NCBI GenBank assembly: GCA_947475165.1
Contig: CANJLD010000001.1
Span: 248,001-312,000, forward strand
DNA from: Bacteroidota bacterium
GTDB taxonomy: Bacteria; Bacteroidota; Bacteroidia; Chitinophagales; LD1
Direction: 5' to 3'
Length of the DNA stretch: 64,000 nt
Part shown: piece by piece, positions 38,299-56,045 of the stretch
Position numbering within the stretch: position 1 is the stretch's first letter
Layout: every line of letters starts with the position of its first letter
Notes under the pieces: generated by a model
The model's input: the letters and a program-made list of their open reading frames with translations, nothing else
The model's database searches: none
Told to the model about the DNA's origin: nothing
Translations under genes and position numbers: made by a program

Positions 38299-38332
38299 TT
38301 CTATTTTTATCACTTCGTTTCACCTTGTTATT

Positions 38333-39439
38333 ATGTCAGCCACTCTCAAGTTCACCAATAAAAACAAAACCGATTTTCATAAGGTAGTTACGCAACGCGT
38401 AGAAAACTACTTTGCCGAAAAAGGTATTTCAAAGAATGCCGATTACCGGATGGTGATTAAAACCATTGTGATGTTCTCGCTCTACTTTATTCCATACGCT
38501 CTTATTCTTTCCGGCACTATTTCTATTTATGGCATGTGGCTTTGCACCGTTATCATGGGTTTAGGATTAGCGGGAATAGGCATGAGTGTAATGCACGATG
38601 CTAATCATGGTGCGTATTCTGGCAAGAGTTGGTTGAATCAAGTTATTGGCTATTCGCTGAACATTGTAGGTGGCGATGCTTTTAACTGGAAAATTCAGCA
38701 CAATCAACTGCACCACACTTACACCAATATTCACGGGTTCGACCAGGATATTCGCCCGCGCATGAATTTGCGTTTAACACCGGCTGTAAAACGGAATTGG
38801 TTTCACCGGTTCCAGGTATTTTATGCTTTTATGTTTTACAGTCTTCAAACTTTCTTTTGGGTGATAGTGAAAGACTTTATGCAGTTTGACCATTATCTGC
38901 AATTTCATTCTGCTGAAAATAATAAGAAGCAAAAAACAAAACGCCTGCTCAACATTATTCTCTTTAAAGTCATTTACTATTTCTACATACTTGTTATTCC
39001 CGCATTGGTGTTAGATGTTGCGTGGAGGCAATTGCTCATTGGCTTTATGACCATACACATGGTAGGCGGCCTAACGCTTACAACAGTTTTTCAATTAGCG
39101 CATGTAGTAGAAGGAACAGATTATCCAGAGCCGGTGAACGGAACTATTGAAGCCGAATGGGCGGTGCATCAAATGCATACCACTGCTAATTTTGCTCCGC
39201 AGAATAAACTCGTTACCTTTTTTGTGGGCGGCTTGAATTATCAGATTGAGCACCATCTTTTTCAGCGCATTTGCCATGTGCATTATCCCTCCATTGCACC
39301 TATTGTGCAGCAAACCGCAGCGGAGTATGGCATTCCGTATATAAAGAACGATACTTTCGGTTCGGCAGTTGCCTCGCATGTTCGCCTGCTTAGGGAATTA
39401 GGCCTGAAGGAAACCTTGAAGATGGCCTCTGATTTCTGA
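38333..39439 (+). CDS. Membrane fatty-acid desaturase (linoleoyl-CoA-desaturase type)
   Basis: A 368-residue diiron membrane desaturase. The three histidine boxes are HDANHG, HNQLHH and QIEHHLF(Q)RICHVHY, with a set of hydrophobic spans around them. The frame is open from 38264, but the first 23 codons lie in a dispersed repeat, so the ATG at 38333 (MSATLKFTNKNKTDF) is preferred. It introduces a double bond into acyl chains of membrane lipids, probably in response to cold or fluidity. An array of 21-nt units starts at its stop codon. Confidence 0.92.
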   Translation: MSATLKFTNKNKTDFHKVVTQRVENYFAEKGISKNADYRMVIKTIVMFSLYFIPYALILSGTISIYGMWLCTVIMGLGLAGIGMSVMHDANHGAYSGKSWLNQVIGYSLNIVGGDAFNWKIQHNQLHHTYTNIHGFDQDIRPRMNLRLTPAVKRNWFHRFQVFYAFMFYSLQTFFWVIVKDFMQFDHYLQFHSAENNKKQKTKRLLNIILFKVIYYFYILVIPALVLDVAWRQLLIGFMTIHMVGGLTLTTVFQLAHVVEGTDYPEPVNGTIEAEWAVHQMHTTANFAPQNKLVTFFVGGLNYQIEHHLFQRICHVHYPSIAPIVQQTAAEYGIPYIKNDTFGSAVASHVRLLRELGLKETLKMASDF

Positions 39440-39604
39440 TTTTTTTTCAAAATGCTCACTTTTTAGTTTCGTTAATGCGTTTCCGTTTTCGGAAATGCAC
39501 CTCCTAACCTTAGGAGCCCCGTTTCTTTTTTCGGAAATGCGTCTCCTTGCATCGGAAGCACCGTTTCCTTTTTAGGAGATGCGCCTATTGACTTAAGGTG
39601 CTAC
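39437..39604 (+). repeat. Intergenic array of 21-nt units (array A), hairpin-forming
   Basis: Seven contiguous 21-nt units start at 39458, 39479, 39500, 39521, 39542, 39563 and 39584, and a degraded unit overlaps the desaturase stop. Identity between units is low, but the register is exact. In units at 39479, 39500, 39521 and 39563, positions 2-8 pair with 11-17 (for example TTTCCG/CGGAAA and CTCCTAA/TTAGGAG), with substitutions matched on both arms. It fills the space between desaturase and the next gene. Confidence 0.85.
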
Positions 39605-39616
39605 TCAATTTATTTC

Positions 39617-39624
39617 TACTTTTG
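39617..39624 (+). promoter_or_regulatory. Minus-seven-like box before the 39630 gene
   Basis: TACTTTTG matches the TAnnTTTG consensus. No TTG sits 19-21 bases upstream; that position falls in the last unit of the 21-nt array. The ATG follows five bases after the box, implying a very short leader. Confidence 0.4.
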
Positions 39625-39629
39625 CAGAT

Positions 39630-40040
39630 ATGCAGGAAGTAAATTTCACCATTGTAAAAAAACGCGCTTCTCCGCTTGTTCAGTTTGCGCTGGCAGTTTT
39701 AATTGGCTGGGCGGGTATGGGAATTTGCCGGCTGCTTCATCTAGAAAAGGGAACAGAATATTTCGCAGCTTTTATCGCCATTATTCTTTTCTGCCTGATA
39801 AATGTGGTTGTTTCGCTTGCGTATGAAAGTTTTTTGCGTTACACCGTTCTGTGTTGGTATCTGTATATTCTGTTAGTAGGACTGCTTCTGCTTTCGGCAA
39901 AATTTTCTTCGGGCATCAGCATCTGGAATTTATACGAATTCAGAATGATGCTTATTTCTGTTTCCCTTTTTTATCTGCTTTCCAGCACTATGGTGCGCGG
40001 CATACGCTTAATTTATTCGGCTGCCGAACAGGGATTTTGA
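39630..40040 (+). CDS. Small membrane protein, unknown function
   Basis: A 136-residue protein with four hydrophobic segments (about 18-35, 43-63, 70-90 and 104-120). It begins MQEVNFTIVKKRASPLVQFA. No family recognised. It stands between the array A and the convergent ndh gene and is separated from ndh by 15 bases. Composition is normal for a coding sequence. Confidence 0.7.
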   Translation: MQEVNFTIVKKRASPLVQFALAVLIGWAGMGICRLLHLEKGTEYFAAFIAIILFCLINVVVSLAYESFLRYTVLCWYLYILLVGLLLLSAKFSSGISIWNLYEFRMMLISVSLFYLLSSTMVRGIRLIYSAAEQGF

Positions 40041-40055
40041 GTTACGAAGCAGAAA

Positions 40056-41345
40056 CTACAAAGCCTTTTTCTGTTTACTGTAAGGGCGAATTATCAACCG
40101 CATATTTCTGTCGTAGTTAATGTAACTCCATACCCAATTAATAAAAACAACTACACGGTTACGGAAACCAACCAGCAGCATTAAGTGTAAACCCATCCAT
40201 GCTAACCAACCAAATAATCTTCCGAAAGTAAAATTGCCTACTTCTACCACCGCGCGGTTTCTGCCAACTGTTGCCATAGTGCCTTTATCAAAGTAGCTGA
40301 ACTTATCAAGCGTCCATTGCTTGAATGTCTTTTTCAAATTGCTTGCGACCAAGTGCGCCTGCTGAATAGCCACCGGTGCAATTTGCGGATGTCCGTTCGG
40401 AAATTTTTCCTGCACCATGCAAGCCACATCGCCAATGGCAAAAATGTTTTCGTGTCCTTTTACTTTGCAGTAATCATCAATGATTATTCTTCCGCGTGCG
40501 TTGATGGAATCTTTATTCAATCCATCTATTAATACTGCCTTAATACCCGCTGCCCAAATTAAACCGGAGGTGTGAAGTTGTTTGCCTGTTTTTGTTTCTG
40601 CAATTGTTCCATCATATTTTACAACACCGGTGTTCAGCCAAACTTCGCAACCCAGTTCTTCTAAATAAGTGCTGGCGCGTTTTCGGTTGGTTTCGTTCAT
40701 GACTTGCAAAAGCTCGCCACCGTTTTCAATCAGTATCACGCGCATCTTTCTGAAGTCGAGTTCGGGATAATCGTTTGGAAGAACATGCTTCTTCAATTCG
40801 CACAAAGCACCGGCTAATTCCACACCGGTGGGTCCGCCACCTACTACTACAAAAGTCATCAGCGCTTCCTGTTCGTGTAAATCTTTAGTGAGCAATGCCT
40901 TCTCGAAATTCTGCAGAATTAAACTGCGCAGGTCGAGCGCTTCGGTTACGCTCTTCATGGGCATAGCGTTCTGCTCAAAATCTTTTATACCAAAGTAATT
41001 GGTTGTAGAACCGGTGGCAATAACGAGATAATCGTACTTCAATTCGCCAATGCTGGTGATAAGTTTGTTCTCTGCTGAAACAATCTGCTGCACTTCGCCC
41101 ATGCGGAAGTGAAAGTTCTTCTGCCCTTTAAATATTTTACGGATAGGGTAGGCAATAGAATCAGCTTCTAAACCCGCAGTAGAAACCTGATACAGCAAAG
41201 GCTGAAAGGTGTGGTAATTGTTTTTGTCGAGCAGCACAATCTGCACTTCGGCTTTGCGCAATTGCTTGGCTAACTCTAAACCACCAAAACCACAACCTAT
41301 AATAACTATGCGCGGAACTTTTACTTCGGGAACATTGATGAACAT
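40056..41345 (-). CDS. ndh: Type II NADH:quinone oxidoreductase (NDH-2)
   Basis: About 430 residues. Two dinucleotide-binding motifs are visible: VIIGCGFGGLELAKQLRKAE for FAD and VVVGGGPTGVELAGAL for NADH. IWAAGIKAVL and IFAIGDVACM are also characteristic. The C-terminal 60 residues (FGWLAWMGLHLMLLVGF, NWVWSYINY) form the membrane-binding helices. It passes electrons from NADH to menaquinone without pumping protons. The frame is open to 41381, but ATG at 41345 (MFINVPEVKVP) is the likely start; the bases upstream are in array B. Confidence 0.93.
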   Translation of the reverse strand: MFINVPEVKVPRIVIIGCGFGGLELAKQLRKAEVQIVLLDKNNYHTFQPLLYQVSTAGLEADSIAYPIRKIFKGQKNFHFRMGEVQQIVSAENKLITSIGELKYDYLVIATGSTTNYFGIKDFEQNAMPMKSVTEALDLRSLILQNFEKALLTKDLHEQEALMTFVVVGGGPTGVELAGALCELKKHVLPNDYPELDFRKMRVILIENGGELLQVMNETNRKRASTYLEELGCEVWLNTGVVKYDGTIAETKTGKQLHTSGLIWAAGIKAVLIDGLNKDSINARGRIIIDDYCKVKGHENIFAIGDVACMVQEKFPNGHPQIAPVAIQQAHLVASNLKKTFKQWTLDKFSYFDKGTMATVGRNRAVVEVGNFTFGRLFGWLAWMGLHLMLLVGFRNRVVVFINWVWSYINYDRNMRLIIRPYSKQKKAL

Positions 41346-41377
41346 GGTGCAAATGTTGCAATAAGTAGCGCACAATT

Positions 41378-41692
41378 GCAACTAAAAACCGAAAGGTTCA
41401 CCAAAAAGGCAAAAAGGTGCACCGGAAACGCAAATGGGTTCACCAGAAATCAAAAAGGGTGAATCAAAAATGAAAAAGGAAGAACCCTTTTGCGAAAAGG
41501 GTAGACCAAAATCGAAAAAGGGTGAACCTTAAACGAAAAAGGAAGAATCCTTTTGCGAAAAGGGTTCACCGAAAACCGAAAAGGGTGAACCAAAAACCGA
41601 TTAGGATGAACCAAAAATGAAAAAGGAAGAACCTTTTTTCGAAAAGGGTGAACCTTAAGCGGAAAAGGAAGCACCTTTCACGAAAAGCTTGC
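41378..41692. repeat. Intergenic array of 15 21-nt units (array B)
   Basis: Fifteen consecutive units begin at 41378 and every 21 nt after it to 41672, with no insertion or deletion over 315 nt. The unit reads about (A/C)ACC, five to six A or T bases, CGAAAAAGG, then GTG, GTT or AAG. ACC at the start and GGT at the end are complementary in most units, and some units are near-perfect hairpins (CCCTTTT/AAAAGGG at 41485-41501). Larger blocks recur (41462, 41525 and 41609). It lies between the T9SS fragment and ndh, both on the minus strand. Confidence 0.9.
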
Positions 41693-41702
41693 AAATTCCT
41701 TT

Positions 41703-41924
41703 TCATTGTTTTATAACCTTTCCGTTCCTGATTACTCCTTTGCTGTTGCGCAACTCATAAAAGTAAATGCCATCTGCAAGTTGCGCGGTGTTTATGGTAG
41801 TGGAATTTGTAAATGCCTGCTGCAAAACCTGCTGACCGAGAAAATTGTAAATTTGGATTGTTGGTGATAACACGAACGGCACAAAGTGAAAGACAGATAA
41901 AGAATCCACACAACTAACAGCCAA
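41703..41924 (-). pseudogene. Orphan T9SS type A sorting-domain fragment
   Basis: The last 50 residues, PTIQIYNFLGQQVLQQAFTN to GVIRNGKVIKQ, are a complete C-terminal half of a T9SS sorting domain (IYNFLGQQV, LADGIYFYEL, GKVIKQ). The upstream part of the frame (MAVSCVDSLSVFHFVPF) does not resemble any secreted domain, there is no signal peptide, and an overlapping frame holds more of the same stretch, suggesting frameshift. It is probably what remains of a secreted-protein gene. The 81 bases to the efflux gene at 42006 contain nothing else. Confidence 0.75.
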
Positions 41925-42005
41925 ATATCTTCATCCTTATGTGGCAAAAAGAGAATCTTATAAAACCTTTTCCCTTTTTCAATCATCTCATTATATCATC
42001 AAGGG

Positions 42006-43430
42006 CTATCTCCAACCACCCCCCAATGCCTTGTAAACGTTTATCTCGGCATTCAGTTGTTTCTTCTTTATCTCAATCAGTTCCATTTTAGATTCCAATG
42101 CTTCGCGCTGGGTGAGCAACACCTCACCATAATCTGCACGGGCAGATTTAAAGAGGTTATCGGAAATTGCAATTGATTGAGTGAGTATTTCCACTTCGTT
42201 GCTTTTGGTGTCGAAACTCTTCGAGTAATTATCAATACCCGAAAGTTCGTTCTGCACTTCGGTGAATGCTTTTAAAATAGTTTGTTCGTATTTATACACC
42301 GCCTGAATTTGTTTTGCTCTCGAAGATTTATAACCCGCTACAATAGCATTGCGGTTAATAAGCGGAGCCATCATATCGGCAAAAACATTGTAGAGCAGAG
42401 ATGTAGGGTTAAACCACACCGCAGGATTAAATGCCTGAAAACCTGCCGATGCAGAAATGCGAAACGTTGGAAAGAAATTTGCCTTCGCCACTTTAATATC
42501 CAGCTTAGATGCAGCTAACTCTTGTTCTGCTTGTCTGATGTCAGGACGATTTTCTAACAACTGACTTGGAACACCCGAAGCAATAGAATCGAATACCGTA
42601 GTATTAAACGAAGCATCGTTACGCGTAATAGGCGCAGGGAAACGACCGGTTAAGAAGTTGAGTTTGTTTTCTGTTTCTACAATCTGCTGTTGAATTTCAT
42701 ACTGCAAATTTTTTGTGTTGAGCAACTGCGCCTCGAAACGGTTCACCGCTAATTGCGTAACACGCGCGGCATCTTTTTGCTGCTTCACAATGTTCAGCGC
42801 GCTTTGTTGTATATCAATGTTTTTGCGAATAATTTCCCACTGGTTGTCGAGCGCAATCAACTCGTAGTATGAATTCGCAATTTCCGAAATCAAATTCGTA
42901 ACCATAAAGTTCTTGCCTTCTACACTCGCGAGGTAACGAGCCACTGCCGCATTCTTTCCATTGCGCAGTTTTTTCCAAATGTCGAGTTCCCACGAAAACA
43001 CTGCGCTAATCATAAAATCGCCAATGTATTTTGGTTTGCTCTCGGCTTTTTCCCAATCATGTTCCGATTGCCCGTTCCATGTGTACTTGCCTGATTTATC
43101 AGCACCAGCACCCAATTGAATTCCACCGTAAGGAAGTTGTTCGCCTTTTTTTGCTTTTACTTCGTTGCGTGCAATTTCAATATCCTGACGAGTGATATTC
43201 AACTCTTGATTGTTTGCCAAAGCAGTATCAATCAGCGCAATCAAATTTTTGTCAGTAAAATAATTGCGCCAGATAACAAGCGCGGTGTTCGTAGTATCCA
43301 GCGAAGCATGATAGCTTGACGGAACTGTTTTGTTTTCTGTTCTTATTGGTTCTTTAAAAAGTTTGCAGCCACCAACCGATATAAGTATAATGACTATAGC
43401 CACATACTTTGCAAATAATTTATTCTTCAT
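42006..43430 (-). CDS. Efflux outer-membrane factor lipoprotein (TolC/OprM-NodT family)
   Basis: A 474-residue protein. The leader ends VGGC (lipobox), and the paired helical-hairpin repeats of the family are visible (ALANNQELNITRQDIEIARN, LLENRPDIRQAEQELAASKL). Forms the outer-membrane channel of a tripartite efflux system with the RND pump and adaptor upstream. The ATG overlaps the TGA of the pump gene (ATGA, 43427-43430). Confidence 0.94.
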   Translation of the reverse strand: MKNKLFAKYVAIVIILISVGGCKLFKEPIRTENKTVPSSYHASLDTTNTALVIWRNYFTDKNLIALIDTALANNQELNITRQDIEIARNEVKAKKGEQLPYGGIQLGAGADKSGKYTWNGQSEHDWEKAESKPKYIGDFMISAVFSWELDIWKKLRNGKNAAVARYLASVEGKNFMVTNLISEIANSYYELIALDNQWEIIRKNIDIQQSALNIVKQQKDAARVTQLAVNRFEAQLLNTKNLQYEIQQQIVETENKLNFLTGRFPAPITRNDASFNTTVFDSIASGVPSQLLENRPDIRQAEQELAASKLDIKVAKANFFPTFRISASAGFQAFNPAVWFNPTSLLYNVFADMMAPLINRNAIVAGYKSSRAKQIQAVYKYEQTILKAFTEVQNELSGIDNYSKSFDTKSNEVEILTQSIAISDNLFKSARADYGEVLLTQREALESKMELIEIKKKQLNAEINVYKALGGGWR

Positions 43431-46400
43431 TTCTCTTTTCTCTTTAAAAATTTGGTGATTAGTTTTCTGATGTTTCGGGTAAGCGCAACTTGTTCTTGAG
43501 ATTCTACAAAGTCTTCGCTTAATGGGTTTTCGTCTTGGTCATTAATCAATTGTTTGCCTTCCGAAAGTTTTCCGAAAATGAAGTAGAGACCCGGAACAAT
43601 AATTACTCCGAAAACAGTTCCGAACAACATTCCTCCCAATGCCGATGCACCAATGGTGTGGTTACCCACCGCACCGGGACCGGTGGCAATTACCAGCGGA
43701 ATTAATCCAGCTATAAATGCGAATGAAGTCATTAAGATAGGGCGGAAACGCACTCTCGCTCCTTCAATAGCTGCTTCCAAAACAGTTGCTCCTTGATTGT
43801 GTTTTTGCACGGCAAATTCCACAATCAGCACCGCATTTTTACCGAGCAAACCGGTGAGCATAATCAAGCCTACCTGCGCGTAAACATCATTGGATAGACC
43901 CATCAATTTCAACAACATGAACGAGCCGAATATTCCCGGAGGAATTGATAGAAGCACCGCAAACGGAAGAAGAAAACTTTCGTACTGCGCGGCAAGAATT
44001 AGATACACGAAGAAGATTACTACAAGGAAAATATACAAGGCTTCGTTTCCTCTTTTTGCTTCGTCATACGAAAGACCTTCCCACGCAATGTCGTATCCGC
44101 GCGGCAAATTTTCTTTGGCAACTTCCTGTATGGCTTTAATGGCATCACCGGAAGAGTAACCCGGTGCAGGCGTTCCGTTAATTAGAGAAGAGATATACAA
44201 ATTGTAACGCGAAATTTCATTGGGTCCCTGCGTTTTCTTTATAGTCATAAAAGCCGAGTAAGGAACCATTTCGCCTTTATCGTTTTTAATAAACATGTTC
44301 AGAATATCCGATGGTTGTTTTCTGAATTCAGGACCGGCTTGCGTGTAAACTTTGTAGTAATTGTTGAAGCGGATGAAACCTTGTTCATACGTACTGCCAA
44401 TCATAATATTCAGATTCTCCATGGAGGCTCCAATAGAAACTCCCTTTTGCATAGCCTTTGCATTATCTATCAGCAATTCGTATTGCGGATATTTGGCAGA
44501 GTAAAAAGCAAACAATCCGCTCAACTCTTTTCTTTTTTCCAAAGCCTCCACAAACTCTTTATTTACTCTGTCAAATTCCTGATAATCTACATCGCTGCTT
44601 TTGTCTAACAAACGCAACGAGAAACCATCGGAAGTTCCATAGCCCGGCACAGCCGGTGGTTCAAAGTATTCAATGTTAGCGGCAAGGTCTTTCGATTTTT
44701 CTTCCAGTTCAGCAATTACCTGCTTTACATTATGTTTTCTATCCGACCAATCTTTTAAGTTAATCAAACAAGTTCCTGCATTAGAGCCTCTGCCTTCGGT
44801 AAGAATTTCGAAACCAGCCAACGCAGTTACTGATTGCACGCCTTCCACTTTCTTGGCAATAGCTTGAAGTTTTCTTGCTATTTCGTTTGTTCTTTCGAGT
44901 GTTGTTCCCGGTGGTGTTTGAATGATAGCATAAATCTGCCCCTGGTCTTCGTTAGGAATAAAACCTGCGGGAAGAATTTTGTTTATACCTACAATACCGA
45001 AAGCAAAGGCAAGGAGTATTCCGTAAGTAACTACTCTGCGGTCAACAATTAGTTTTAGCAATCCGGTATATTTTCCTGTAATTTTTTCGAAGCCTTTGTT
45101 GAACCAATCAAGAAAAATACTCACCGGTGTTTTTCTTTTCGGCTGGCCGTGTGTGTTCTTTAAAAGTATGGCACATAAAACCGGAGTAAGCGTAAGCGCA
45201 ACAACACCGGATAGAATAATGGCTGTTGCCATAGTAATAGAGAACTGCCGATAAAGAACGCCCACCGGTCCGCTCATAAATGCAACAGGAACAAACACAG
45301 CGGTCATTACTAAAGTGATGGCTATGATAGCACCGCCTATTTCTCCCAAGGCTTTTTGCACCGCTTTGTATGGAGATAAATTTTCTTCGTCCATTTTCAC
45401 ATGCACCGCTTCCACTACCACAATGGCATTATCTACCACAATGCCGATAGCTAAAACAAGTGCGAAGAGCGTTATCAGGTTTATGCTTAACCCAAACATT
45501 TGCATGAAAACAAATGTTCCAATCAGCGACACCGGTACTGCGAGAATTGGAATAAGTGTAGAACGCCAATCGCCTAAGAAAATAAATACAACTATGGCAA
45601 CCAGAATAAATGCTTCCAATAAAGTATGTAATACTTTTTCGATAGAGGCATCAACAAATTTTGAAACATCGTAATTGATTTCGTAATCCATGCCCGGTGG
45701 AAAATCTTTTCTTAATTCTTCCAGCTTTGCTTTTACATCGGCAATTACCTTGTTAGCATTACTGCCAGGGTTTTGTTTCAGCACTATTGAGGCAGAAGGA
45801 AATCCATCTTTGTTAGAGTAGATATCTACAAACTCGCTACCAACTTCTACTTCGGCAACATCTTTTAGTTTAAGTATTTCGCCTTCTGCATTTGCGCGGA
45901 TAATAATTTCCTTATACTGTTCCGGTGTGTTATACCAACCTTTGTAAGTAAAAACATACTCCTGCGATTGTGCCGTTTTTCCTGAACTCAATCCTACTCT
46001 TCCCGGTCTTGCCAAAACGCTTTGTTCGTCAATAGCTTTCAACACATCTTCTGCAGAAATTTTGTACGCCATCATTCTGTCTGGGTTCAACCAAACGCGA
46101 ATAGCAAAAGCGCGGCTACCTATTGCCTCTGCATGACCCATTCCGCTTATCCGTTGAATCTCCGGTAAAATGTAAGTATTAGCGTAGTTGAATAAAAATT
46201 TCTCGTCTGTATTTTTGCTGGTGCTGTAAAGGTTCAAATACATCAACATGCTCGGTTGTAGAGGTTTGATGATTACACCCTCTCGTTGAACCAATGGAGG
46301 AAGGTTGGTCATTACCTGATCAACCCTCGATTTTACTCTGGCTGCTGCAATGGTGGGGTCAGTACCGGGTTCAAATACTATATCAATACTTGCCTCGCTG

Positions 46401-46654: not shown

Positions 46655-46680
46655 CTTGTCTGTAATTTTTTGGTTCCTGC

Positions 46681-47763: not shown

Positions 47764-47868
47764 TACAGTTTTTGTTTTAGTTGATAAATGACAAATGGAA
47801 AGCATTAACCGGAGTGAAGGTTGAATGCAAAACCGCAACCCTAAAAGAGGGAGCGGGTAATTAAAAAG

Positions 47869-48240: not shown

Positions 48241-48320
48241 TTTTCTAATTGCCGTGCGAATATCAGTTATGGTTTGGTATTTATAAATCGCTTAACAATT
48301 GTTGAGAGATTGCCGTGAAT

Positions 48321-48692
48321 TTAATTGGCAGGAACCGGTTTAGTTTTTGTATAAACATACGCCCACCAAATCAACAAAAACTGAATAGGCAAACGCAAGT
48401 AAAGCGCAAAGGCGGAAAAATTCCAATCGGTTGAATGCAATGCCATATTAATGTTGGCAGGAAAAATTGCCACAAGCAAAAGGATAATTCCCCAGGCAGA
48501 AATTTTTCTTGTTTGCGGTAGCATAACACCAATACCTAAAATAATTTCAATTGCACCACTTATGATATTTAACTCATTAGGGTGGGGAAGAAATCCAATA
48601 AGCATCTTCAAATAAAAATCGGGATGCAAGAAGTGATTGATGCCTGCAAGCACATACAAAATCCCCATTAAGTAAACTGTATATTTTTTCAT
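48321..48692 (-). CDS. DoxX-like membrane protein
   Basis: A 123-residue protein with four hydrophobic segments. The N-terminus YTVYLMGILYVLAGINHFLH and IISGAIEIILGIGVMLPQTR match the DoxX family. Function is uncertain; relatives are linked to thiosulfate:quinone oxidoreductase and to redox proteins. It follows miaE by 13 bases. Confidence 0.85.
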   Translation of the reverse strand: MKKYTVYLMGILYVLAGINHFLHPDFYLKMLIGFLPHPNELNIISGAIEIILGIGVMLPQTRKISAWGIILLLVAIFPANINMALHSTDWNFSAFALYLRLPIQFLLIWWAYVYTKTKPVPAN

Positions 48693-48705
48693 ATTGATTT
48701 TCCGG

Positions 48706-49287
48706 TTAGTGAATCCTATCTCCTCTTACGTCTATCTTCTGCATTATTCCTGCTTCAAACTCTAACCATTCTTCCCAACGGGCTAATACTTTTTCTTTCT
48801 CGCCAATTTCGCAAGCCATATCTAAAAACAACCGGTAGTGACCGGCTTCACTCACCATCAGGTTTTTGTAGAACTGTTTTAATTCTTTGTCTTCAATATT
48901 TTTTGAGAGCAGTTTAAACCGCTCACAACTTCTTGCTTCTATTAAAGCGGAGAATAAAAGTTTTTCACTCAGTGAATCCTTACGCGACCCACCGTGACGA
49001 ATAAATTTCAACAACTCGCTTACGTATTTATCTTTTCGCTGCAAGCCCAATTTCAATCCACGCTTTTTTAAATGTTCCACTACCAATTCAAAATGCCCCC
49101 ATTCCTCTTTTACAATTGGAGATAAGGCAACTACTATATTTTCGAAATCGGGATAATTCTGAATTAAAGAAATAGCCGTAGAGGTAGCTTTCTGCTCGCA
49201 GTAAGCATGGTCGGTAAGAATTTCCTGAATAGATTTTCCGGCAAGGTCAGCCCAGCGAGGGTCGGTGGGAAGTTTTAGTCCTAACAT
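48706..49287 (-). CDS. miaE: tRNA-(ms2io6A)-hydroxylase (MiaE family)
   Basis: A 193-residue di-iron protein. The ferritin-like fold is shown by HAYCEQKATSTAISLI, IVKEEWGHFELVVEHL, IEARSCERFKLL and VSEAGHYRLFLDMA, carrying the Glu/His ligands. MiaE hydroxylates the 2-methylthio-isopentenyl adenosine at position 37 of tRNAs. Start and length are normal, and it is probably in one operon with the DoxX-like gene, which is 13 bases downstream. Confidence 0.88.
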   Translation of the reverse strand: MLGLKLPTDPRWADLAGKSIQEILTDHAYCEQKATSTAISLIQNYPDFENIVVALSPIVKEEWGHFELVVEHLKKRGLKLGLQRKDKYVSELLKFIRHGGSRKDSLSEKLLFSALIEARSCERFKLLSKNIEDKELKQFYKNLMVSEAGHYRLFLDMACEIGEKEKVLARWEEWLEFEAGIMQKIDVRGDRIH

Positions 49288-49332
49288 ATTAGAGGCGAAA
49301 CTAAAAATTCATTTCAGCCGAAGAGTAATCCA

Positions 49333-51900
49333 CTACGCTGCTTTAGGTAAAGTGAAATGGAACGTACTGCCTTTTCCCTTTTCGGAAATAGCCCAAAGTT
49401 TACCTCCGTGCTTTTCTATAACCTTGGCGCATATACTTAAACCGATACCGGTTCCCTGAAACTCTTCATCGGTATGCAAGCGTTTAAAGATTTTGAAAAT
49501 TTGCTCAGCATATTGCTGGTCGAAACCGATACCGTTATCGGCTATTGTAAAATGCCAGTCGTTCATTTCATCAGCTACCTTAACGGTTACTTTCTTAGCC
49601 GGTGTAAGATTATACTTCAATCCATTTTCAATCAGGTTCTGGAATAACTCACCCATCATGGTTTCGTTGCAGGTAATTACCGGCAAGTCATCTACATCTA
49701 CAGTGCCGTTGTTCTTCTCCATGATATCTTTCAAGCCTCCTAGCACTTTCTTCACCATATCATTAAGCGATACGTTCTCAGCCATATTAACCGACTGTTC
49801 CATTTTAGAATACTGTAGAATATCGCGAATAAGGTCGCTCATCTTGTTTGCACCATCTATACTGAAGTTCACAAAGTCCTGTGCAGCTTGTGGCAGGGCC
49901 TCAGAATATTTTTTCTTCAACAAGGTGAGATATGAAACGATAGTGCGTATCGGCTGTTTCATATCATGACTTACTATGTATGCAAACTCTTCCAGTTCCT
50001 TGTTAGAGCGTGCAAGGTTCTTGGCTTTTACCTCCAGCTCGACTTGTGCTTCTCTCAAATCGGTTACATCTCGAATAATGAGCAAGTACTCGTTAGCCTT
50101 AAACGGAGCTATAACCACTTTAAAGAAATTGTCTTTGTGGTAAGTGGTATCGTGGTATTCAAACGAAGCCGACAAATCAGATTCTATTACACTATCTAAA
50201 GTTGCCGAGAAAAGTTCAGGTGCATCGCCCGGTAGAATTTCGCTGAAGGTTTTACCCATCAAATTCATATCCTGCATAAAAGGATCCATAGTGGTAAACT
50301 CGTTGCCACCGGTAAACTCGCCATTCTTATTAATAATGTACAACCAGTCCGGCAAGGCGCGGAGGATAAACTCGTTGGTCAATTGCGCTTCATGTAAGCG
50401 CATTTCGGTTCTTAAACGCGTAAACGCGTTGGCTACCATGTTACCTATTAGGGCAAAGAAATTAGACTGCACATGTTTTACGCGCACATCGAACACAAAC
50501 ACCACAAACCCGTTAACCACATTACCGCTTTGCAGTGGAATAATGTAGAACTGCTTATCCGTAACATTGGCTGTGCTGATAATTTGAATTTCGTTCAACT
50601 GGACGGGCAGAATGAAATGACCGCGCGATGATTTTTCGCCACGTATGCTGCGCAGGAACACCACCAGCGGCTGGTCTATCTTTACTACCAGATTAAATTT
50701 AGCTGCGAGGTTTTTATCGGCACCGCCAAACCATTGATTGGTTGAACGGAATTCATCGCTCAACTTACCGTGCATACGGTAAACCAATACAGCATCGGCC
50801 TCCAGCATCATACCAAACTCGCCCAGGGCTACATCTATACCCGATTGAATTTCCGCACGGTCAACATTTATAAACTGATTGGAATGGCGAATAAGCATTT
50901 CCTCCACAATCATCTGCTGCTTTATTTCTTCCTCCTGCTTTTTGCGCTCTTCTATATTTCTTGTTTCAGCAAATATCAATACCTGCGAGCTACCTTCTTT
51001 GGCAGCAAAGGTGCTGAAGATACTTTCTACCCAAATGTAGTTTCCTTCATCATCCTTTAAGCGGTATTCTAATCGCTCACGGCTGTTTGTTTGGGCCACT
51101 ACACTCGCAGCCACTTTCTCTATTTCTGCAAAATCTTCCTCGTTGGTTACTTCTTTAATTGATCTCTTCGAAATCTCCTGCATTTCATAACCTGCCAGTT
51201 CTCTGGCAGCAGGGTTGATGTAAACAAAGCACAATTGGCTATCTAAAATAATTTGTGCATCACGCGCATTCTCGCTTATTACTTTAAACTGAATACTTAC
51301 ATCTGACGAAACCTGCGAGAACTTCATTCGCTGCACATTGATCATATAGTTACCTGCCAGCACAATAGTAAACACAACCATGTGCATCGGGTCTTTCAAT
51401 AGCGGATCAAATTGCCAATTAATACCTACTGCAACTGCAAAGAGTAATACTTCACCTGCCGAAAATAGCATCAACTCTCTGCGCGAATCCAACCCAAAAC
51501 AGATAATTACAAACAGGATGTAACTAAATATCATGTAGAACATTTCTCCCTGTAGCGCCTCTGTAAATTCCTTTATAGGAAGATTTGGGTTTACATGCAA
51601 AAACTGCGTATTGGTAGAGTACGCATAAATTACATTGAAGTTTAAGTAGAACAAAAAGAACTTAAAAGCTGCAGAAGTATTGTCCTTATACTTAGGATTC
51701 CTTAAAACAGAAAGCACAACTACTACTGTACCAATCAACACACCGGCTATCCAGATAATTGGCGAGTCTTTAGCTTCTTTCCCGCTCATCATTTCTACCA
51801 TATTTCCTAGAAGCAATCCTACTACCATGAACAAAGAAATGGCCCGTTCTTTCCAGTAAGATTCACCCGTAATGCGATTGATAAGTGATTTTTTCGGCAT
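49333..51900 (-). CDS. Membrane-bound PAS-domain sensor histidine kinase
   Basis: 855 residues. The N-terminus has six to seven hydrophobic segments (about 15-190), followed by a PAS domain with PAC (about 205-330; FVYINPAARELAGYEMQEIS), a GAF-like part, a second PAS region, a short coiled coil, a HisKA domain with phospho-acceptor His at about 640 (IVSHDMKQPIRTI), and HATPase_c with NLIENGLKYN, ADNGIGF and GTGIGLSICAKVIEKHGG. No receiver domain and no response-regulator gene adjacent. A dyad symmetry CCTGTTA-TCC-TAACAGG lies 30 bases upstream of its start. Confidence 0.92.
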   Translation of the reverse strand: MPKKSLINRITGESYWKERAISLFMVVGLLLGNMVEMMSGKEAKDSPIIWIAGVLIGTVVVVLSVLRNPKYKDNTSAAFKFFLFYLNFNVIYAYSTNTQFLHVNPNLPIKEFTEALQGEMFYMIFSYILFVIICFGLDSRRELMLFSAGEVLLFAVAVGINWQFDPLLKDPMHMVVFTIVLAGNYMINVQRMKFSQVSSDVSIQFKVISENARDAQIILDSQLCFVYINPAARELAGYEMQEISKRSIKEVTNEEDFAEIEKVAASVVAQTNSRERLEYRLKDDEGNYIWVESIFSTFAAKEGSSQVLIFAETRNIEERKKQEEEIKQQMIVEEMLIRHSNQFINVDRAEIQSGIDVALGEFGMMLEADAVLVYRMHGKLSDEFRSTNQWFGGADKNLAAKFNLVVKIDQPLVVFLRSIRGEKSSRGHFILPVQLNEIQIISTANVTDKQFYIIPLQSGNVVNGFVVFVFDVRVKHVQSNFFALIGNMVANAFTRLRTEMRLHEAQLTNEFILRALPDWLYIINKNGEFTGGNEFTTMDPFMQDMNLMGKTFSEILPGDAPELFSATLDSVIESDLSASFEYHDTTYHKDNFFKVVIAPFKANEYLLIIRDVTDLREAQVELEVKAKNLARSNKELEEFAYIVSHDMKQPIRTIVSYLTLLKKKYSEALPQAAQDFVNFSIDGANKMSDLIRDILQYSKMEQSVNMAENVSLNDMVKKVLGGLKDIMEKNNGTVDVDDLPVITCNETMMGELFQNLIENGLKYNLTPAKKVTVKVADEMNDWHFTIADNGIGFDQQYAEQIFKIFKRLHTDEEFQGTGIGLSICAKVIEKHGGKLWAISEKGKGSTFHFTLPKAA

Positions 51901-51929
51901 ACTATTTCTTGCTGTAATGATATAGCTAT

Positions 51930-51946
51930 CCTGTTATCCTAACAGG
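51930..51946. promoter_or_regulatory. Possible operator: 7-bp dyad in the divergent promoter region
   Basis: CCTGTTA (51930-51936) / TAACAGG (51940-51946) with spacer TCC, in the 237-base space between the divergent histidine kinase and oxoamine synthase genes. It may be a transcription-factor site; I see no match to a known one. Confidence 0.35.
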
Positions 51947-52098
51947 TAACATCTTCACACTTGTTTATAGCAGAAGAATATTTGAGTAGACACTCTATAA
52001 GACGAGCGTTGATATTATTTGTGACTATTAGCCGTTTACACAGGTAAAATACAAGTTATTTCCGTTGCCATTTATAGCTATTTTATTACCGGAGAGGA

Positions 52099-52106
52099 TA
52101 TTTTTG
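52099..52106 (+). promoter_or_regulatory. Minus-seven-like element of the oxoamine synthase gene
   Basis: TATTTTTG fits TAnnTTTG and is placed 31 bases before the ATG at 52138. A TTG at the usual distance is missing, so the upstream half is unclear. Confidence 0.5.
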
Positions 52107-52137
52107 TTACAAGATTTTAATTCACCTGACTGAAATC

Positions 52138-53430
52138 ATGAAAAAAGAATTTACCGATGTTATCAACAAAATCTTCAACAAGAACCGCGAGCTTGGTTTA
52201 ATCCATGGTTCTACCCAAGATGAAATTTTAGATGGCAAGCATGTAACTGTGCGGGGCAACAAAATGGTTTACTACGGCTCTTGCAGTTACCTGGGCTTAG
52301 AAACCGATGAGCGCTTAAAGAAAGCCGCTATTAATGCCGTGCAGCGGTATGGTTCGCAGTTTTCATGTTCCCGTACCTTCCTGCAAATGGGCTTGTACGA
52401 AGAAGTGGAAAGCATGTTAGGTGAGATTATGGGCAAGCCGGTTTTGCTGGCTCCTACTACCAGTTTAGGTCACGTATCTACTATACCCGTAATTATTGGC
52501 GAGCGCGATGCCGTTATTGCCGACCAACAAGTACATAACAGCGTGCGTAACGCCATACAAATGGTAAAAGGCGATGGCACGTATGTAGAAACACTTCCGC
52601 ATAACCGTATGGATTTGTTGGAACAACGTATTGAAACTCTTCAAAAAGAATACGACCGCGTTTGGTACTTTACCGATGGTGTTTTCTCGATGTATGGCGA
52701 CACTCCTAACTTTAAAGAAATTTGGAGATTGCTGGATAAATATGAGCAGTTTAACTTTTATGTAGATGATGCACACGGTATGAGCTGGGCTGGCAAAAAC
52801 GGTCGCGGTCTTACCCTTAGCCGTATGCCTCACCACCCCCGCATGATGGTTACTTCCTCCCTGGCAAAAGGTTTTGCTAACTGCGGTGGTGTATTAGCTT
52901 TTGGTAGCGAAGAAGAAAAGAACACCATTAAAAACTGCGGTAGTTCATTCATCTTCTCTGGTCCATTACAACCTGCTGTACTAGGTGCTATTAAAGCGGC
53001 CGCCCAAATTCACTTGAGCCCTGAAATTGAAACATTGCAGAATGATTTGTATGAGCGCATGTTATTCTTTGTAGACAGAGCTCAATACCATGCACTGCCG
53101 CTTATCAGCAGTGCCATTACTCCTATCTTCTACATTGGTGTAGGTAAACCCGAAATTGGTTTCAAACTTTCTGAAATACTGAACAAAGAAGGTATCATGT
53201 TCAATCTTGCGCAGTTCCCTGCCGTATCGGTTAAAAATGCAGGAGTTCGAATTGCATTAACCAACCACCACACACTTCAAGACATTAATAAGCTATTAGA
53301 ATCTATTGCTCACTACCTACCTAAATTAGTTGAAGAAGCAGGCTATAGCTACGAAGAAATTTACGAAGCATTCGGCATGAAACGCCCGCAAACAACTTCT
53401 ATAGAAATGCCATTAAGAAAAATTGCTTAA
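52138..53430 (+). CDS. Alpha-oxoamine synthase family PLP enzyme (KBL/SPT/sulfonolipid-synthase-like)
   Basis: 430 residues. The fold-type I PLP site is complete: DDAHG (Asp210, His213), SSLAKG with the Schiff-base Lys244, YYGSCSYLGLETDERL and SSAITPIF. The family condenses an amino acid with an acyl-CoA, as in serine palmitoyltransferase, KBL, CqsA and the cysteate acyltransferase of sulfonolipid synthesis. The alanine/glycine-specific members are shorter. The substrate cannot be decided here. It is followed by a rho-independent terminator, thus monocistronic. Confidence 0.88.
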   Translation: MKKEFTDVINKIFNKNRELGLIHGSTQDEILDGKHVTVRGNKMVYYGSCSYLGLETDERLKKAAINAVQRYGSQFSCSRTFLQMGLYEEVESMLGEIMGKPVLLAPTTSLGHVSTIPVIIGERDAVIADQQVHNSVRNAIQMVKGDGTYVETLPHNRMDLLEQRIETLQKEYDRVWYFTDGVFSMYGDTPNFKEIWRLLDKYEQFNFYVDDAHGMSWAGKNGRGLTLSRMPHHPRMMVTSSLAKGFANCGGVLAFGSEEEKNTIKNCGSSFIFSGPLQPAVLGAIKAAAQIHLSPEIETLQNDLYERMLFFVDRAQYHALPLISSAITPIFYIGVGKPEIGFKLSEILNKEGIMFNLAQFPAVSVKNAGVRIALTNHHTLQDINKLLESIAHYLPKLVEEAGYSYEEIYEAFGMKRPQTTSIEMPLRKIA

Positions 53431-53451
53431 ACCCGGGAAGGGCTAAGCAGC

Positions 53452-53479
53452 AAAGGCACTCGAAAGAGTGCCTTTTTTT
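53452..53479 (+). terminator. Rho-independent terminator of the oxoamine synthase gene
   Basis: Stem AAAGGCACTC / GAGTGCCTTT with a GAAA tetraloop (53462-53465) and a seven-T run, 21 bases after the stop codon. Confidence 0.93.
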
Positions 53480-53594
53480 ATGCATCATCCGCCTATGTGC
53501 CTTTCAGTAAAACTTATATTAAATAGTATTTGATGCATTTAGAAACAATTCCATACATTAATTGTGAAGATTGCCACTGTGAATTAGATGAAAA

Positions 53595-53627
53595 AAATCC
53601 CGTGCCAGGTAAGCCGACACGGGATTT
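53595..53627 (-). terminator. Rho-independent terminator of rpsA
   Basis: Stem AAATCCCGTG (53595-53604) / CACGGGATTT (53618-53627); read on the minus strand it ends in a run of seven T. It is 21 bases downstream of the rpsA stop. Confidence 0.85.
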
Positions 53628-53648
53628 AATTTTTAAAGCGAAAACTGA

Positions 53649-55520
53649 TTACTCAGGGCTTTTTTCTTCAGAAGATGATTCTTCTTTTGCTGCTTTATTA
53701 TCGGCAGCAGTTTTGTTATCCATTTTTTCTTTCAAGTCGCTAAGTGCGCTCAAATCTCCAAGGGTTGCTTTTTCAACACTCTTCTGAAGATTCTTAACGG
53801 TCTTAGCTGTTGATTCGCGTTCAGCTTTCTTCTCTTTCTTTTCGCCTTCAATAACTTCGTTCTGAACCTCTTCCCAAATGCGGGCGTGAGATACAAGAAT
53901 GCGCTTATCGTTACGATTGAATTCGATAACCTTGAACTGTGTTTTTTCATCAGCCGCTACAAAACCACCGCTTTCTTTAGCTAAGTGTTTTTTAGGTGCA
54001 AATGCTTCTAAACCGTAAGGAAGAAGAACGATTCCACCTTTATCATCACTGTGTAATAAAGTAGCTTCGTGAACTGAACCTACCGGGAACACTGTTTCGA
54101 AAGAATCCCATGGATCTTCTTCAATTTGTTTGTGTCCGAGGGTAAGCTTGCGGTTTTCGTTGTCAATATCAAGAACAACCACATCCAATTCGCTACCTAC
54201 TTTGGTAAACTCAGTTGGGTGATTGTAACGCTTAGTCCAAGAAAGGTCGCTGATGTGAATCATGCCACCGATACCGTCAGTTAATTCAACAAACACACCG
54301 TATGGAGTGATGTTCTTAACGGCACCTTTGGTTTTAGTTCCAACAGGGAATTTGTCAGCAATCTTAACCCAAGGGTCTTCTGTCAATCTCTTTAACGAAA
54401 GTGACATTTTTCTTTCTTCGCGGTCAAGTGTCATTACAATAGCCTCATGCGTATCGCCAGACTTGAAATATTCGCGGCTGTTGATAGGCGTGTTGCTCCA
54501 AGAAACTTCTGATACGTGAATTAAACCTTCAACACCCGGAGTAATTTCGAGGAACGAACCGTAATCCTCAATATTTACGATTTTACCCTTCACCTTGCTG
54601 CCAAGTTCAATTTCCTTGTCTAAAGTATCCCATGGGTGCGGCTGCAATTGTTTCAAGCCGAGGGAAATTCTCTTCTTGTTATCATCGTAATCCAATACCA
54701 CCACGTTCAATTTCTGGTTCAACTCAAGCACTTCTTTCGGGTGACCAATTCTGCCCCACGAAATATCAGTGATGTAAAGTAATCCGTCAACACCTCCAAG
54801 GTCAATGAACGCACCGAAGTCGGTGATGTTCTTGATAGTTCCTTCAAGAACCTGTCCTTTTTCCAACTTACCGATAATTGCTTCGCGTTGCGATTCAATA
54901 TCTGACTCAATAAGAGCTTTGTGAGATACTACCGCGTTTTTAATGGCTTCGTTAATCTTCACAACTTTCAACTCCATAGTTTTACCTACATAAACATCGT
55001 AATCGGTAATTGGCTTAACATCAATTTGCGAACCCGGAAGGAAGGTATCCACTCCGAATACGTTGGCGATAAGACCACCTTTGGTTTTAGAAACAATTTT
55101 ACCCTGAACCACCACACCTGTTTTGTGTGCATCCATAATTTCTTCCCACGCTTTCATGGTGCGGGCGTTTTTACGGCTTAGTTGAAGGATACCTTTTTTG
55201 TCTTCTTTGTTTACTACATACACATCAAACTCATCGCCTGCTTTCAAATCTTCCACATCGCGGAATTCGGAAAGAGGAACAAGTCCATCGGATTTGAAAC
55301 CGATATTTAAAACTACATCTGTGTTAGTAAGCGCTACTACAGTTCCCTTTACAATCTCATCGTTTTCGATGGTCTTTAAAGTGGAAGAATACTGTACATC
55401 GTAGGCAGCTTTTTCTGCATCGGTATAACGTACTACGTTACGTTTATCTACCGTCCAGTCAAAATCGTCATGGGCTGTACTGGTGTTAGCCGTTGTGTTT
55501 TCTAAAATATTTTCAGACAT
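53649..55520 (-). CDS. rpsA: 30S ribosomal protein S1
   Basis: A 623-residue protein with six S1 RNA-binding repeats (first at about 58-125; typical cores GLVPLSEFRD, GLLYITDISWGRIGHPKE, GLIHVSEVSWSNTPINSREY and GMIHISDLSWTKRYNHPTEF). The C-terminal 60 residues are charged and low-complexity (ERESTAKTVKNLQKSVEKA). It helps messengers bind the ribosome and unfolds leaders. In Bacteroidota, which use weak Shine-Dalgarno sites, S1 is important for initiation. A promoter-like box and a hairpin sit at the expected start of its leader (55582-55615). Confidence 0.97.
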   Translation of the reverse strand: MSENILENTTANTSTAHDDFDWTVDKRNVVRYTDAEKAAYDVQYSSTLKTIENDEIVKGTVVALTNTDVVLNIGFKSDGLVPLSEFRDVEDLKAGDEFDVYVVNKEDKKGILQLSRKNARTMKAWEEIMDAHKTGVVVQGKIVSKTKGGLIANVFGVDTFLPGSQIDVKPITDYDVYVGKTMELKVVKINEAIKNAVVSHKALIESDIESQREAIIGKLEKGQVLEGTIKNITDFGAFIDLGGVDGLLYITDISWGRIGHPKEVLELNQKLNVVVLDYDDNKKRISLGLKQLQPHPWDTLDKEIELGSKVKGKIVNIEDYGSFLEITPGVEGLIHVSEVSWSNTPINSREYFKSGDTHEAIVMTLDREERKMSLSLKRLTEDPWVKIADKFPVGTKTKGAVKNITPYGVFVELTDGIGGMIHISDLSWTKRYNHPTEFTKVGSELDVVVLDIDNENRKLTLGHKQIEEDPWDSFETVFPVGSVHEATLLHSDDKGGIVLLPYGLEAFAPKKHLAKESGGFVAADEKTQFKVIEFNRNDKRILVSHARIWEEVQNEVIEGEKKEKKAERESTAKTVKNLQKSVEKATLGDLSALSDLKEKMDNKTAADNKAAKEESSSEEKSPE

Positions 55521-55581
55521 CTGAGTATACGCGGTTATTGTTTATTCTCACCCCGTGTGCGTGAGTTTAGTTTGGTTGAAA

Positions 55582-55615
55582 TTCACCCATGGCGGGTGAA
55601 AGGGGCGCAAATATA
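55582..55615 (-). promoter_or_regulatory. rpsA minus-seven box and leader hairpin
   Basis: On the minus strand TATATTTG (plus 55608-55615) fits TAnnTTTG. Just downstream, at the likely start of the messenger, is a hairpin TTCACCC / GGGTGAA (plus 55582-55588 and 55594-55600). The leader is about 80 nt, long enough for autoregulation as known for S1 messengers in other bacteria. The nearest TTG is 23 bases away, not 19. Confidence 0.5.
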
Positions 55616-55647
55616 GAAAAGAAGATGAAAGTTTATAGCAATTAAAT

Positions 55648-55671
55648 GTTGTTGGTGATAACACCAACAAC
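55648..55671. repeat. 10-bp perfect inverted repeat
   Basis: GTTGTTGGTG (55648-55657) / CACCAACAAC (55662-55671), loop ATAA. No T run follows on either strand, so it is not a classic terminator. It is at the edge of array C and may be related to its units. Confidence 0.6.
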
Positions 55672-55686
55672 GGTTCGAATGTTGTT

Positions 55687-56045
55687 GCCAACGCCAAGAA
55701 GTTTGTGCGCCAAGAGAGAAGTTTTTAGTGCTACGTCAACTAATTTGTTTGACACGCTGCTCGTTTAATTTACCAAGCGGGTTGAGTTGTCCGCCAAGTG
55801 ATGAGTTTTGTGTGCCAAGCTATTCGTGTAATTCGCCACGCGACTTGTGTTGTTTGCCAAGTCAAGAGTTTTGGTTGACAGGCTAACTTAACCAGGCTGA
55901 CCGACAGGCAGGTTTGTGCGCCAAGACAGCGATTTAATTTGCCACGCTACTCGACTTTTTTGCCAAGCGATTGATGTTGTTTGCCAAGACGGACGTATAA
56001 TTTGCCAAGTCACTTACAAAGTCGGCAAGTTTGCTAAGTAAATTG
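55687..56045. repeat. Intergenic array of about 17 21-nt units (array C)
   Basis: A core GCCAAG (or ACCAAG, GCCACG, GACACG, GACAGG) recurs at 55709, 55730, 55751, 55772, 55793, 55814, 55835, 55856, 55877, then (with one extra base) 55920, 55941, 55962, 55983 and 56004, and weaker at 56025 and 56045. Each unit has the conserved core, a variable stretch of about seven bases, and a T-rich half such as TGTTGTTT. The region from 55521 to 56342 has no gene; it holds the rpsA promoter, this array and a palindromic element. Confidence 0.9.

Follow-up and report, generated by a model that had tools for sequence, protein, structure and literature searches.

Intergenic tandem arrays that share a 21-nt pitch rather than a sequence adjoin orphan gene families in one Chitinophagales genus

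DNA elements with regulatory or structural roles are usually identified by their sequence. In this work, we describe a class of intergenic tandem arrays that is recognisable by geometry alone, a 21-bp pitch, with letters varying between loci. The starting point was a 64,000-nucleotide stretch of the Bacteroidota bacterium assembly GCA_947475165.1 (contig CANJLD010000001.1, forward-strand positions 248,001 to 312,000), hereafter the window, which holds three such arrays. The window's genome (45 contigs) is termed G000, the other genomes of its genus G001 to G017, and individual loci carry L-numbers; the closest relatives that have a name come from metagenome assemblies of Bacteroidetes or Chitinophagales. 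The proteins that recur as array neighbours, labelled X, have ~200-415 aa and no signal peptide by eye, and the array lies on the 5' side of their genes. Many of the arrays stand immediately ahead of fast-changing genes known to date from this genus alone, an arrangement that looks like a new kind of gene-control module.

Among known tandem repeats, bacterial minisatellites (variable-number tandem repeats, VNTR) consist of tandem units that are gained and lost unit by unit. To our knowledge, they are expected to show neither a unit length common to unrelated loci nor a tie to one gene family, whereas the present arrays share their unit length among unrelated loci, and many of them are tied to X genes. 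Type III toxin-antitoxin systems of the ToxIN-like kind have RNA repeats of ~36 nt, RNase toxins and a locus-specific tandem array upstream of a protein gene. Many of the present arrays likewise stand directly upstream of a protein gene and are locus-specific in sequence, but their repeat is 21 nt and the X proteins are without a toxin match: no toxin Pfam was found among nine X proteins, and a ToxN-, CptN- or TenpN-type toxin was matched neither by Pfam (the nine) nor by PADLOC (eight), in libraries that may lack some models.

Three regulator-bound or presumed regulator-bound repeat types invite comparison. The operator repeats of LytTR regulators are 9-bp direct repeats with mostly 12-bp gaps, which amounts to a 21-bp pitch on one helix face, and they stand before autoregulated operons (PMC6193735). 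A pitch of ~21 bp is also seen in our arrays, one of which adjoins a LytTR gene; however, the LytTR sites described there have two repeats per promoter and a broad consensus, against ~6-25 units and no common consensus here, and LytTR occurs in one of 40 array-side genes. BldC binds a variable number of direct repeats (9-bp sites) head to tail as a filament (PMC5859096). The variable repeat number is shared with the present arrays, whereas the 21-bp pitch and the often dyad-symmetric units set the latter apart. The TAACTGA heptamer repeats of Beggiatoaceae, Cyanobacteria and some Bacteroidetes, proposed as regulator sites, are intergenic tandem repeats that lie mostly just upstream of start codons in one genome (PMC4679880). 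They are a single fixed 7-nt sequence, in contrast to the fixed pitch with many sequences found here.

Other known classes were rejected as well. The arrays are not clustered regularly interspaced short palindromic repeats (CRISPR), because their units abut without spacers and no cas-like gene was seen by eye beside the 53 arrays of G000 and G010 that could be placed between two called genes; as an exception, a G009 array (L095, 9772-10078) lies ~450 bp from a Cas9-like gene. That gene is 1380 aa long with a Cas9-like start by eye, and the periodic stretches beyond it at 820-3025 (38 nt) and 5261-9403 (29 nt), with the 21-nt array on the gene's other side, possibly form a CRISPR locus. Nor do the arrays form one dispersed family in the manner of repetitive extragenic palindromic sequences or bacterial interspersed mosaic elements (REP/BIME): an all-against-all comparison of 61 arrays gave just eight similar pairs, three of them strong. 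Rfam returned no match in window 38000-58000 at E up to 0.1, and a literature search of titles and abstract openings, whose coverage excluded most subscription journals, found no description of such arrays among the entries listed. Because CRISPR, type III toxin-antitoxin systems, REP/BIME, coding repeats and Rfam families fail the defining features, we rate the element, whose class is set by its pitch and its gene neighbourhood, as new in kind; its favoured mode of action would be a variant of operator arrays.

Pitch and range of the arrays

The sequence-only reading of the window had noted intergenic arrays at 39437-39604, 41378-41692 and 55687-56045 that repeat every 21 nt with unrelated-looking consensus sequences and almost no indels, and it named a genome-wide intergenic peak at 21 nt as the supporting result to look for. 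All three arrays are present near these positions, far above chance by autocorrelation, and the 21-nt spacing is real and genome-wide. In 464 kb of G000 (the window and 20 further stretches, with 166 gaps totalling 32 kb), pooled intergenic autocorrelation was highest at lag 21 (z 13.2), followed by 8.9, 8.8 and 7.0 at lags 42, 63 and 84, the best lag off the 21 series being lag 4 (z 3.9). A gene-independent scan for noncoding periodic stretches covered 864 kb of G000 (~22%) and 500 kb of the congener G010 (~12%), other genomes being covered much less. It found 36 noncoding arrays in G000, 30 of them with a unit of 21, 41, 42 or 43 nt, and 32 in G010, of which 31 had a unit of 21, 22, 41 or 42 nt; the shuffled G000 sample returned none in the same scan. 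Extrapolation (30 in 864 kb of 3.88 Mb) gives ~130 arrays per genome.

The 61 arrays pooled from the two genomes are ~120-520 bp long, hold ~6-25 units and range in GC from 21 to 63%, with consensus sequences that differ among loci. Their unit is 21 nt in 33 arrays, 42 in 21, 41 in five, and 22 and 43 in one each, and whole-unit higher-order repeats (42, 63) are common. Pooled autocorrelation peaks at each multiple of 21 up to 189 nt (z 25 to 84), with z at most 13 one base beside the peaks. Scan and pooled register together bear out the earlier claim that unrelated sequences share one spacing, kept while bases change, throughout the genome. Neither of the outcomes named there as refuting it, a lack of 21-nt excess in the rest of the genome or membership in a known repeat family, was observed. 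The explanation of 21 nt as seven codons did not survive: an open frame exists in 18 of 54 arrays against 19.9 expected from column-permuted ones, and units of 41, 43 and 22 nt occur. DNA bending, also raised earlier, fails in the form of A-tract curvature phased at one helical turn, since lags 10 and 11 are negative in the pooled gaps and in the 61 arrays. A 7-nt substructure was rejected too, with lags 7 and 14 negative inside the 61 arrays; in the pooled gaps, lag 7 reached z 2.6 and lags 14, 28 and 35 showed no excess. Genes were called by a simple longest-open-reading-frame rule.

Array 1 (39444-39601) ends 28 nt ahead of the start of the gene at 39630-40040. Its sequence unit is 42 nt, because its lag-42 z is 7.8 and its lag-21 z just 1.7, and within each unit lie two distinct palindromes, TTTCC/GGAAA and CTCCTAA/TTAGGAG, whose axes, at columns 9.5 and 30.5 of 42, are separated by 21 nt. 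Array 2 (~41385-41686), with 21-nt units of consensus AAAGGGTGAACCnnAAACGnA, begins ~40 nt ahead of the minus-strand start codon (ATG at 41345) of an NADH-dehydrogenase-like gene and has z values of 11.3, 10.0 and 11.3 at lags 21, 42 and 63, with a dyad z of 3.3. Array 3 (55668-56056), with 21-nt units around a TTTGCCAAG core, lies between an rpsA-like gene and an X gene, and the same three lags give 9.0, 8.8 and 9.6. The 21 pitch is common to all three: the exact period claimed earlier holds for arrays 2 and 3, and in array 1 it is kept by the palindromes and not by the letters. The near-absence of indels is broadly correct, apart from a +1 shift around 55880-55922 in array 3 (by eye) and two rows of Tandem Repeats Finder (TRF) output for array 2 with 6-8% indels against 0-3% in most rows.

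The consensus sequences are indeed unrelated. A DNA search of the 18 genus genomes with array 2 gave weak matches (66% over 143 nt elsewhere in G000; 29 nt in G002), and the two-core pattern of array 3 (21 nt apart, at most three mismatches) occurs at ten places within array 3 and at nine scattered single places elsewhere, against 17 for the reversed pattern used as control. Array 1 belongs to a sequence family of four G000 loci, itself and three others, with no match in the other genus genomes (18 genus genomes searched, E 0.001). At one locus of this family (L327), a divergent XRE-like gene lies on one side and an X-type leader on the other, and neither was recognised at the other three, all by eye; the four loci would look like the pattern expected of one regulator with several target arrays.

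Among the sequences sampled, the 21-nt class is confined to one Chitinophagales genus, within which G003 and G008 were left out of the sampling. Further 21-family arrays were found in G009 (three per 121 kb), G004 (one per 40 kb) and G005 (one per 112 kb); 121 kb of G007 held none besides one 42-nt array classed as coding by the scan rule, and 7-97 kb samples of G001, G002, G006 and G011-G017 held none. Beyond the genus, samples of the family's other genera (191 kb), of the order's remaining families (200 kb) and of other Bacteroidota (60 loci, 1,175 kb) contained no noncoding array of the 21 family. Other periods, such as 8, 9 and 14, do occur in these samples, and four loci of other Bacteroidota (L155, L138, L189, L130) carry strong 8- and 9-nt tandem arrays, a different repeat class. 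Congeners without X had one array per 307 kb (none in 195 kb of six genomes, one in 112 kb of G005), against ~11 to 19 predicted from the rates of G000 and G010.

In the same gap, the spacing recurs and the letters do not. The gap between the NADH-dehydrogenase-like gene and an efflux gene measures ~620 bp in G000, where it holds array 2, and 616 bp in G010, where the 21-nt array is GC-rich, unrelated in sequence and differently placed; in G004 it is 63 bp long and without an array. The GC-rich array escaped our first, gap-based detector because it reads as an open frame. Upstream of rpsA, an array stands in two of 17 genus loci (G000 and G010, with different sequences), although some loci hold little upstream sequence, and synteny past this region differs among the nearest relatives. 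The idea that orthologous gaps keep the spacing and change the sequence is thus matched by G010 in both gaps, and not by G004 or the other 15 rpsA loci; since these showed no array, arrays come and go. Arrays are also copied, because some share sequence at distant loci, and in the similar pairs the likeness ends at or near the array edge. Two G010 pairs from distant loci are ~79-83% alike: L234 5294-5806 with L239 17508-17738, in opposite orientation, and L227 4979-5349 with L238 13030-13355. A shared boundary motif was sought in 122 flanks (up to 120 nt) against 422 gaps and rejected, weak k-mer excesses alone being found.

X gene families and other array neighbours

The association of arrays with X genes is solid. 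Two X families, A1 and A2, were searched with profiles each built from four members picked because they adjoin arrays, and counts without these seeds are also given. The A1 profile has 27 matches in seven of 18 genus genomes, and in a phylum sample of 395 genomes it matched one, G000 itself. All 25 matches whose upstream sequence reaches 250 nt or more are preceded by an array with a period of 21, 42 or 63 nt (21 of 21 without seeds), the remaining two having just 8 and 69 nt. The array z is above 6.5 in 24 cases and 6.1, at period 21, in the other; the best array window (210 nt) ends 33 to 247 nt before the match start, and 33-107 nt before it in 20 of the 25. On the downstream side, none of the 25 has a 21-family array and one has a 60-nt period. 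For comparison, arrays are present in just 53 of 497 gaps overall. The A1 loci L284 and L287 of G010 are recent duplicates on two contigs, with X upstream regions that are near-identical and arrays that match almost base for base, with more diverged flanks, the array side being the best kept.

Family A2, to which the window gene at 56343-57551 belongs, has 49 matches at E 1e-10, spread over nine of the 18 genomes of the genus; at E 1e-20, the widest A2 search made, 12 genomes representing the family's other genera had none; its CarboxypepD part is a common domain. An upstream array was found at 24 of the 30 A2 loci examined (20 of 26 without seeds), where L298 and L306, both among the 24, are two pieces of one locus. 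At L226 1924-4382 (G000), two tandem A2-type X genes stand behind a single 21-nt array, with the first copy directly downstream of it. Profile comparison gave a probability of 5% for homology of A1 and A2; X is therefore a label for several families. Within the genomes searched, these families are orphan and restricted to one genus. Sequence searches of the PDB gave nothing meaningful for A1 (best E 0.13) and, for positions 226-296 of A2, a match to cellulosomal scaffoldin; PHROGs, NCBIfam and PADLOC (7, 8 and 8 X proteins) gave nothing useful, an S-layer match of L064 lying far under the cut-off. The X leaders are A-rich and G-poor, G making up 4% of their final 30 nt compared with 12-14% for 221 controls, and contain TAACCA in 27% of cases against 1% of controls, which argues for a shared type of translation start. 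Genus-only range in the sample, ties to orphan families and some small regulators are all points that the sequence-only reading had missed.

With regard to gene context, 53 of the 61 arrays could be placed; they lie in tandem (29), convergent (13) and divergent (11) gaps, and convergent gaps are about twofold enriched (13 of 53 with arrays, 55 of 444 without). On the other side of X-associated arrays, 46 loci were scanned, six of them without a called gene, and Pfam regulators were recognised in seven of the resulting 40 genes (HTH_26 in three, GerE in two, HTH_3 and LytTR in one each). None of these four families appeared among the 25 of 81 families listed for 80 control genes, drawn from 259 beside array-free gaps, so that single helix-turn-helix (HTH) matches in controls are possible; of the 83 shuffled control genes taken first, three had been dropped as lying beside arrays. 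The small regulator genes that recur beside X arrays, assigned by eye where Pfam gave no match, include divergent ones of XRE/Cro type (for example L323, L301, L307, L322, L302, L316, L271), tandem ones of GerE/LuxR type (L290, L274, perhaps L286, L270 and L277) and LytTR (L281, perhaps L289); the four doubtful ones, L286, L270, L277 and L289, had no convincing Pfam match. Three G000 arrays without X (L065, L208, L223) face a small HTH-like gene by eye. Arrays also occur near a gyrA-like gene in L311 (G000) and L228 11851-12160 (G010), on opposite sides of the gene.

Mode of action

Our leading reading, held tentatively and with slightly less than even confidence, is that the arrays are tandem protein-binding sites spaced at two helical turns that control X. 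Many arrays would form the 5' part of a lineage-specific module together with an orphan X gene and its A-rich, G-poor leader, and in a minority of modules the gene beyond the array would encode a small DNA-binding regulator. The array would act as DNA, lining up sites, often with dyad symmetry, to which a dimeric or filament-forming protein binds; at 21 bp, two turns, all of the sites would face the same side of the helix. The expression level of X, and that of certain other neighbouring genes, would be set in this way. Each array's letters would change together with its own binding partner, whole-unit duplication would keep the array uniform, and the fixed spacing would follow from the required helical phase, which would leave it unable to change. 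Binding, the identity of the binding protein, regulation and co-change are what we infer here. Such a two-turn DNA platform is the most economical account of the pitch, the sequence indifference, the dyads, some regulators and the register. Dyad symmetry is significant in 17 of 25 A1 arrays against a column-permuted control, where the p-values, like those for covariation and array-1 double changes below, are of the shuffle type and ignore the relatedness of units. In the presumed orthologous arrays of G000, G017 and G009, a GAATAnnTATTC-like core at 21-nt pitch is kept and the linkers vary, and their G010 relative has such a core in one unit only (by eye).

Several observations weigh against this reading. 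The X-bearing genomes G001, G015, G016 and G017 showed no arrays in 52, 97, 61 and 10 kb, and the X-free G005 carries one, of 42 nt. Six of the 30 A2 loci lack an upstream 21-family array: L317 is a tandem second copy, L313 and L314 are C-terminal fragments, L319 has period 37 upstream (z 11.4), L308 has its array on the 3' side, and the sixth is L300. The 13 convergent gaps among 53 have no gene downstream of the array, and beside most arrays no regulator gene was recognised. In the general sample, a dyad z above 2 was reached by 13 of 29 arrays with 41-43-nt units and 8 of 36 with 20-22-nt units; array 3 lacks dyad symmetry (z -0.5) though it precedes an X gene. The A1 arrays end so near the start codon that an intervening promoter is unlikely, and the joint change of palindrome arms in the array-1 family would not readily be tolerated by a sequence-specific protein. 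Lone arrays in convergent gaps, dyad-less arrays and the short distance between A1 arrays and their start codons are left unexplained by the platform.

This short distance would fit another explanation, unlikely in our judgement but to be taken seriously, in which the arrays are transcribed 5' leaders with RNA stem-loops every 21 nt that are bound by X or another RNA-binding protein, or that tune mRNA stability. The box TAnnTTTG, taken as the sign of a promoter between array and X start, is not enriched: at -55 to -10 it occurs in 10% of 41 X leaders (25 A1, 16 A2) and 13% of the 221 controls, although four of 16 A2 genes do have such a box at -43 to -48. Given this and the short distance in A1, the array may be transcribed. 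The hairpins suggested earlier fit a subset of arrays: 20 of 29 arrays of the 42 type fold on the + strand with z below -2 against column-permuted arrays, and within-unit covariation is found in 17 of 56 at p<0.05, the p-values of 42-nt arrays being optimistic because of their two repeated unit types. In the array-1 family, 42 cells are changed on both palindrome sides against 15.7 in shuffles, and 93% of cells are paired, compared with 29-54% in slid controls. However, two of the five measures for this family stay at shuffle level (both-side-change pairs 5 vs 4.1; further pair types 11 vs 12.6), few independent events lie behind the arm changes, and template-switch repair could be another source of them. 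In the 17 A1 arrays selected for dyads, which omits the eight without a significant one, G-T mismatches (142) are no commoner than A-C (154); selected pairing in sense RNA should make them so, and such pairing is not indicated. Some palindromes, such as GAATAnnTATTC, leave just a 2-nt centre, array 3 and many 21-nt arrays are dyad-less, arrays exist in convergent gaps, and the Rfam search was empty. A further reading, which we regard as rather improbable, lets X, or a complex with it, assemble on its own array, as DNA or transcript, giving dozens of self-recognising, co-diverging and mutually orthogonal pairs per genome that would share the two-turn geometry and be free in sequence; it draws on the array at every testable A1 gene and on the related arrays of one presumed orthologous set, and the arrays of X paralogues look unrelated by eye.

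Selection might also be dispensed with. Neutral or selfish repeats, copied as an ancestral array with an ancestral X, made uniform by slippage and palindromic by template-switch repair, would be functionless; this we find doubtful. The largely coinciding ranges of arrays and X, the copying seen as shared sequence at distant loci, the common higher-order repeats and the empty site in G004 would all fit. Slippage, proposed in the sequence-only reading, accounts for homogenisation, but not for the fixed unit length and the gene link: units of 21 or 42 nt persist in 54 of 61 arrays, the others being 22, 41 or 43, despite turnover of sequence to unrelatedness, where indel drift of the unit would be expected; the register is maintained over 189 nt, and the upstream position at every testable A1 match would have had to survive without selection. 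It is quite improbable that an array marks a mobile or recombining cassette of X and array, sometimes with a regulator, whose lone arrays are scars remaining once the cargo has gone. The lone arrays of convergent gaps, the 63-bp G004 site compared with ~620 and 616 bp, and the variable synteny beyond the rpsA upstream region agree with it, whereas the flanks have no clear common boundary motif, the similarity of array pairs stops at or near the array, and no recombinase was noticed by eye in the first 150 aa of flanking proteins.

If the arrays are binding platforms, the ~130 extrapolated per genome would provide natural replicates for reading, from sequence, the helical-phase dependence of cooperative binding and the co-evolution of proteins with their sites; if they act as RNA, they would be a new leader type. 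Either way, the association places orphan proteins in a context that can be tested, and searching by pitch requires no sequence similarity.

Window genes and minor observations

The X gene of the window, P0005 (56343-57551, plus strand), encodes a 402-aa A2 member with a CarboxypepD_reg domain. Its single-sequence structure model, of low confidence (mean predicted local distance difference test score, pLDDT, 34.7), is helical towards the N-terminus and beta towards the C-terminus. On the other side of array 3 lies the rpsA-like gene (53649-55520, minus strand), named by inspection, with an S1-domain match in a scan that included its N-terminal 150 aa. The gene directly downstream of array 1 (39630-40040, plus strand) encodes 136 aa, a membrane protein by eye. 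The array 2 gap is bordered by the NADH-dehydrogenase-like gene (40056-41345, minus strand) and an outer-membrane-efflux-type gene (42006-43430, minus strand), both named by inspection. Adjoining array 2, window 41692-41900 contains an apparent gene fragment with a C-terminal sorting domain of the type IX secretion system (T9SS) type, by eye, which is missing from the 63-bp G004 gap.

Heptamer arrays of CAAAGAN (unit 7/14/21/28) at window 26681-26726 and 27059-27120 flank a small gene at 26738-27058 and are a class separate from the 21-nt arrays. Further stretches with a 7- or 14-nt period lie at L065 3962-4034, L085 1-210 (G046) and L094 15457 (G007).

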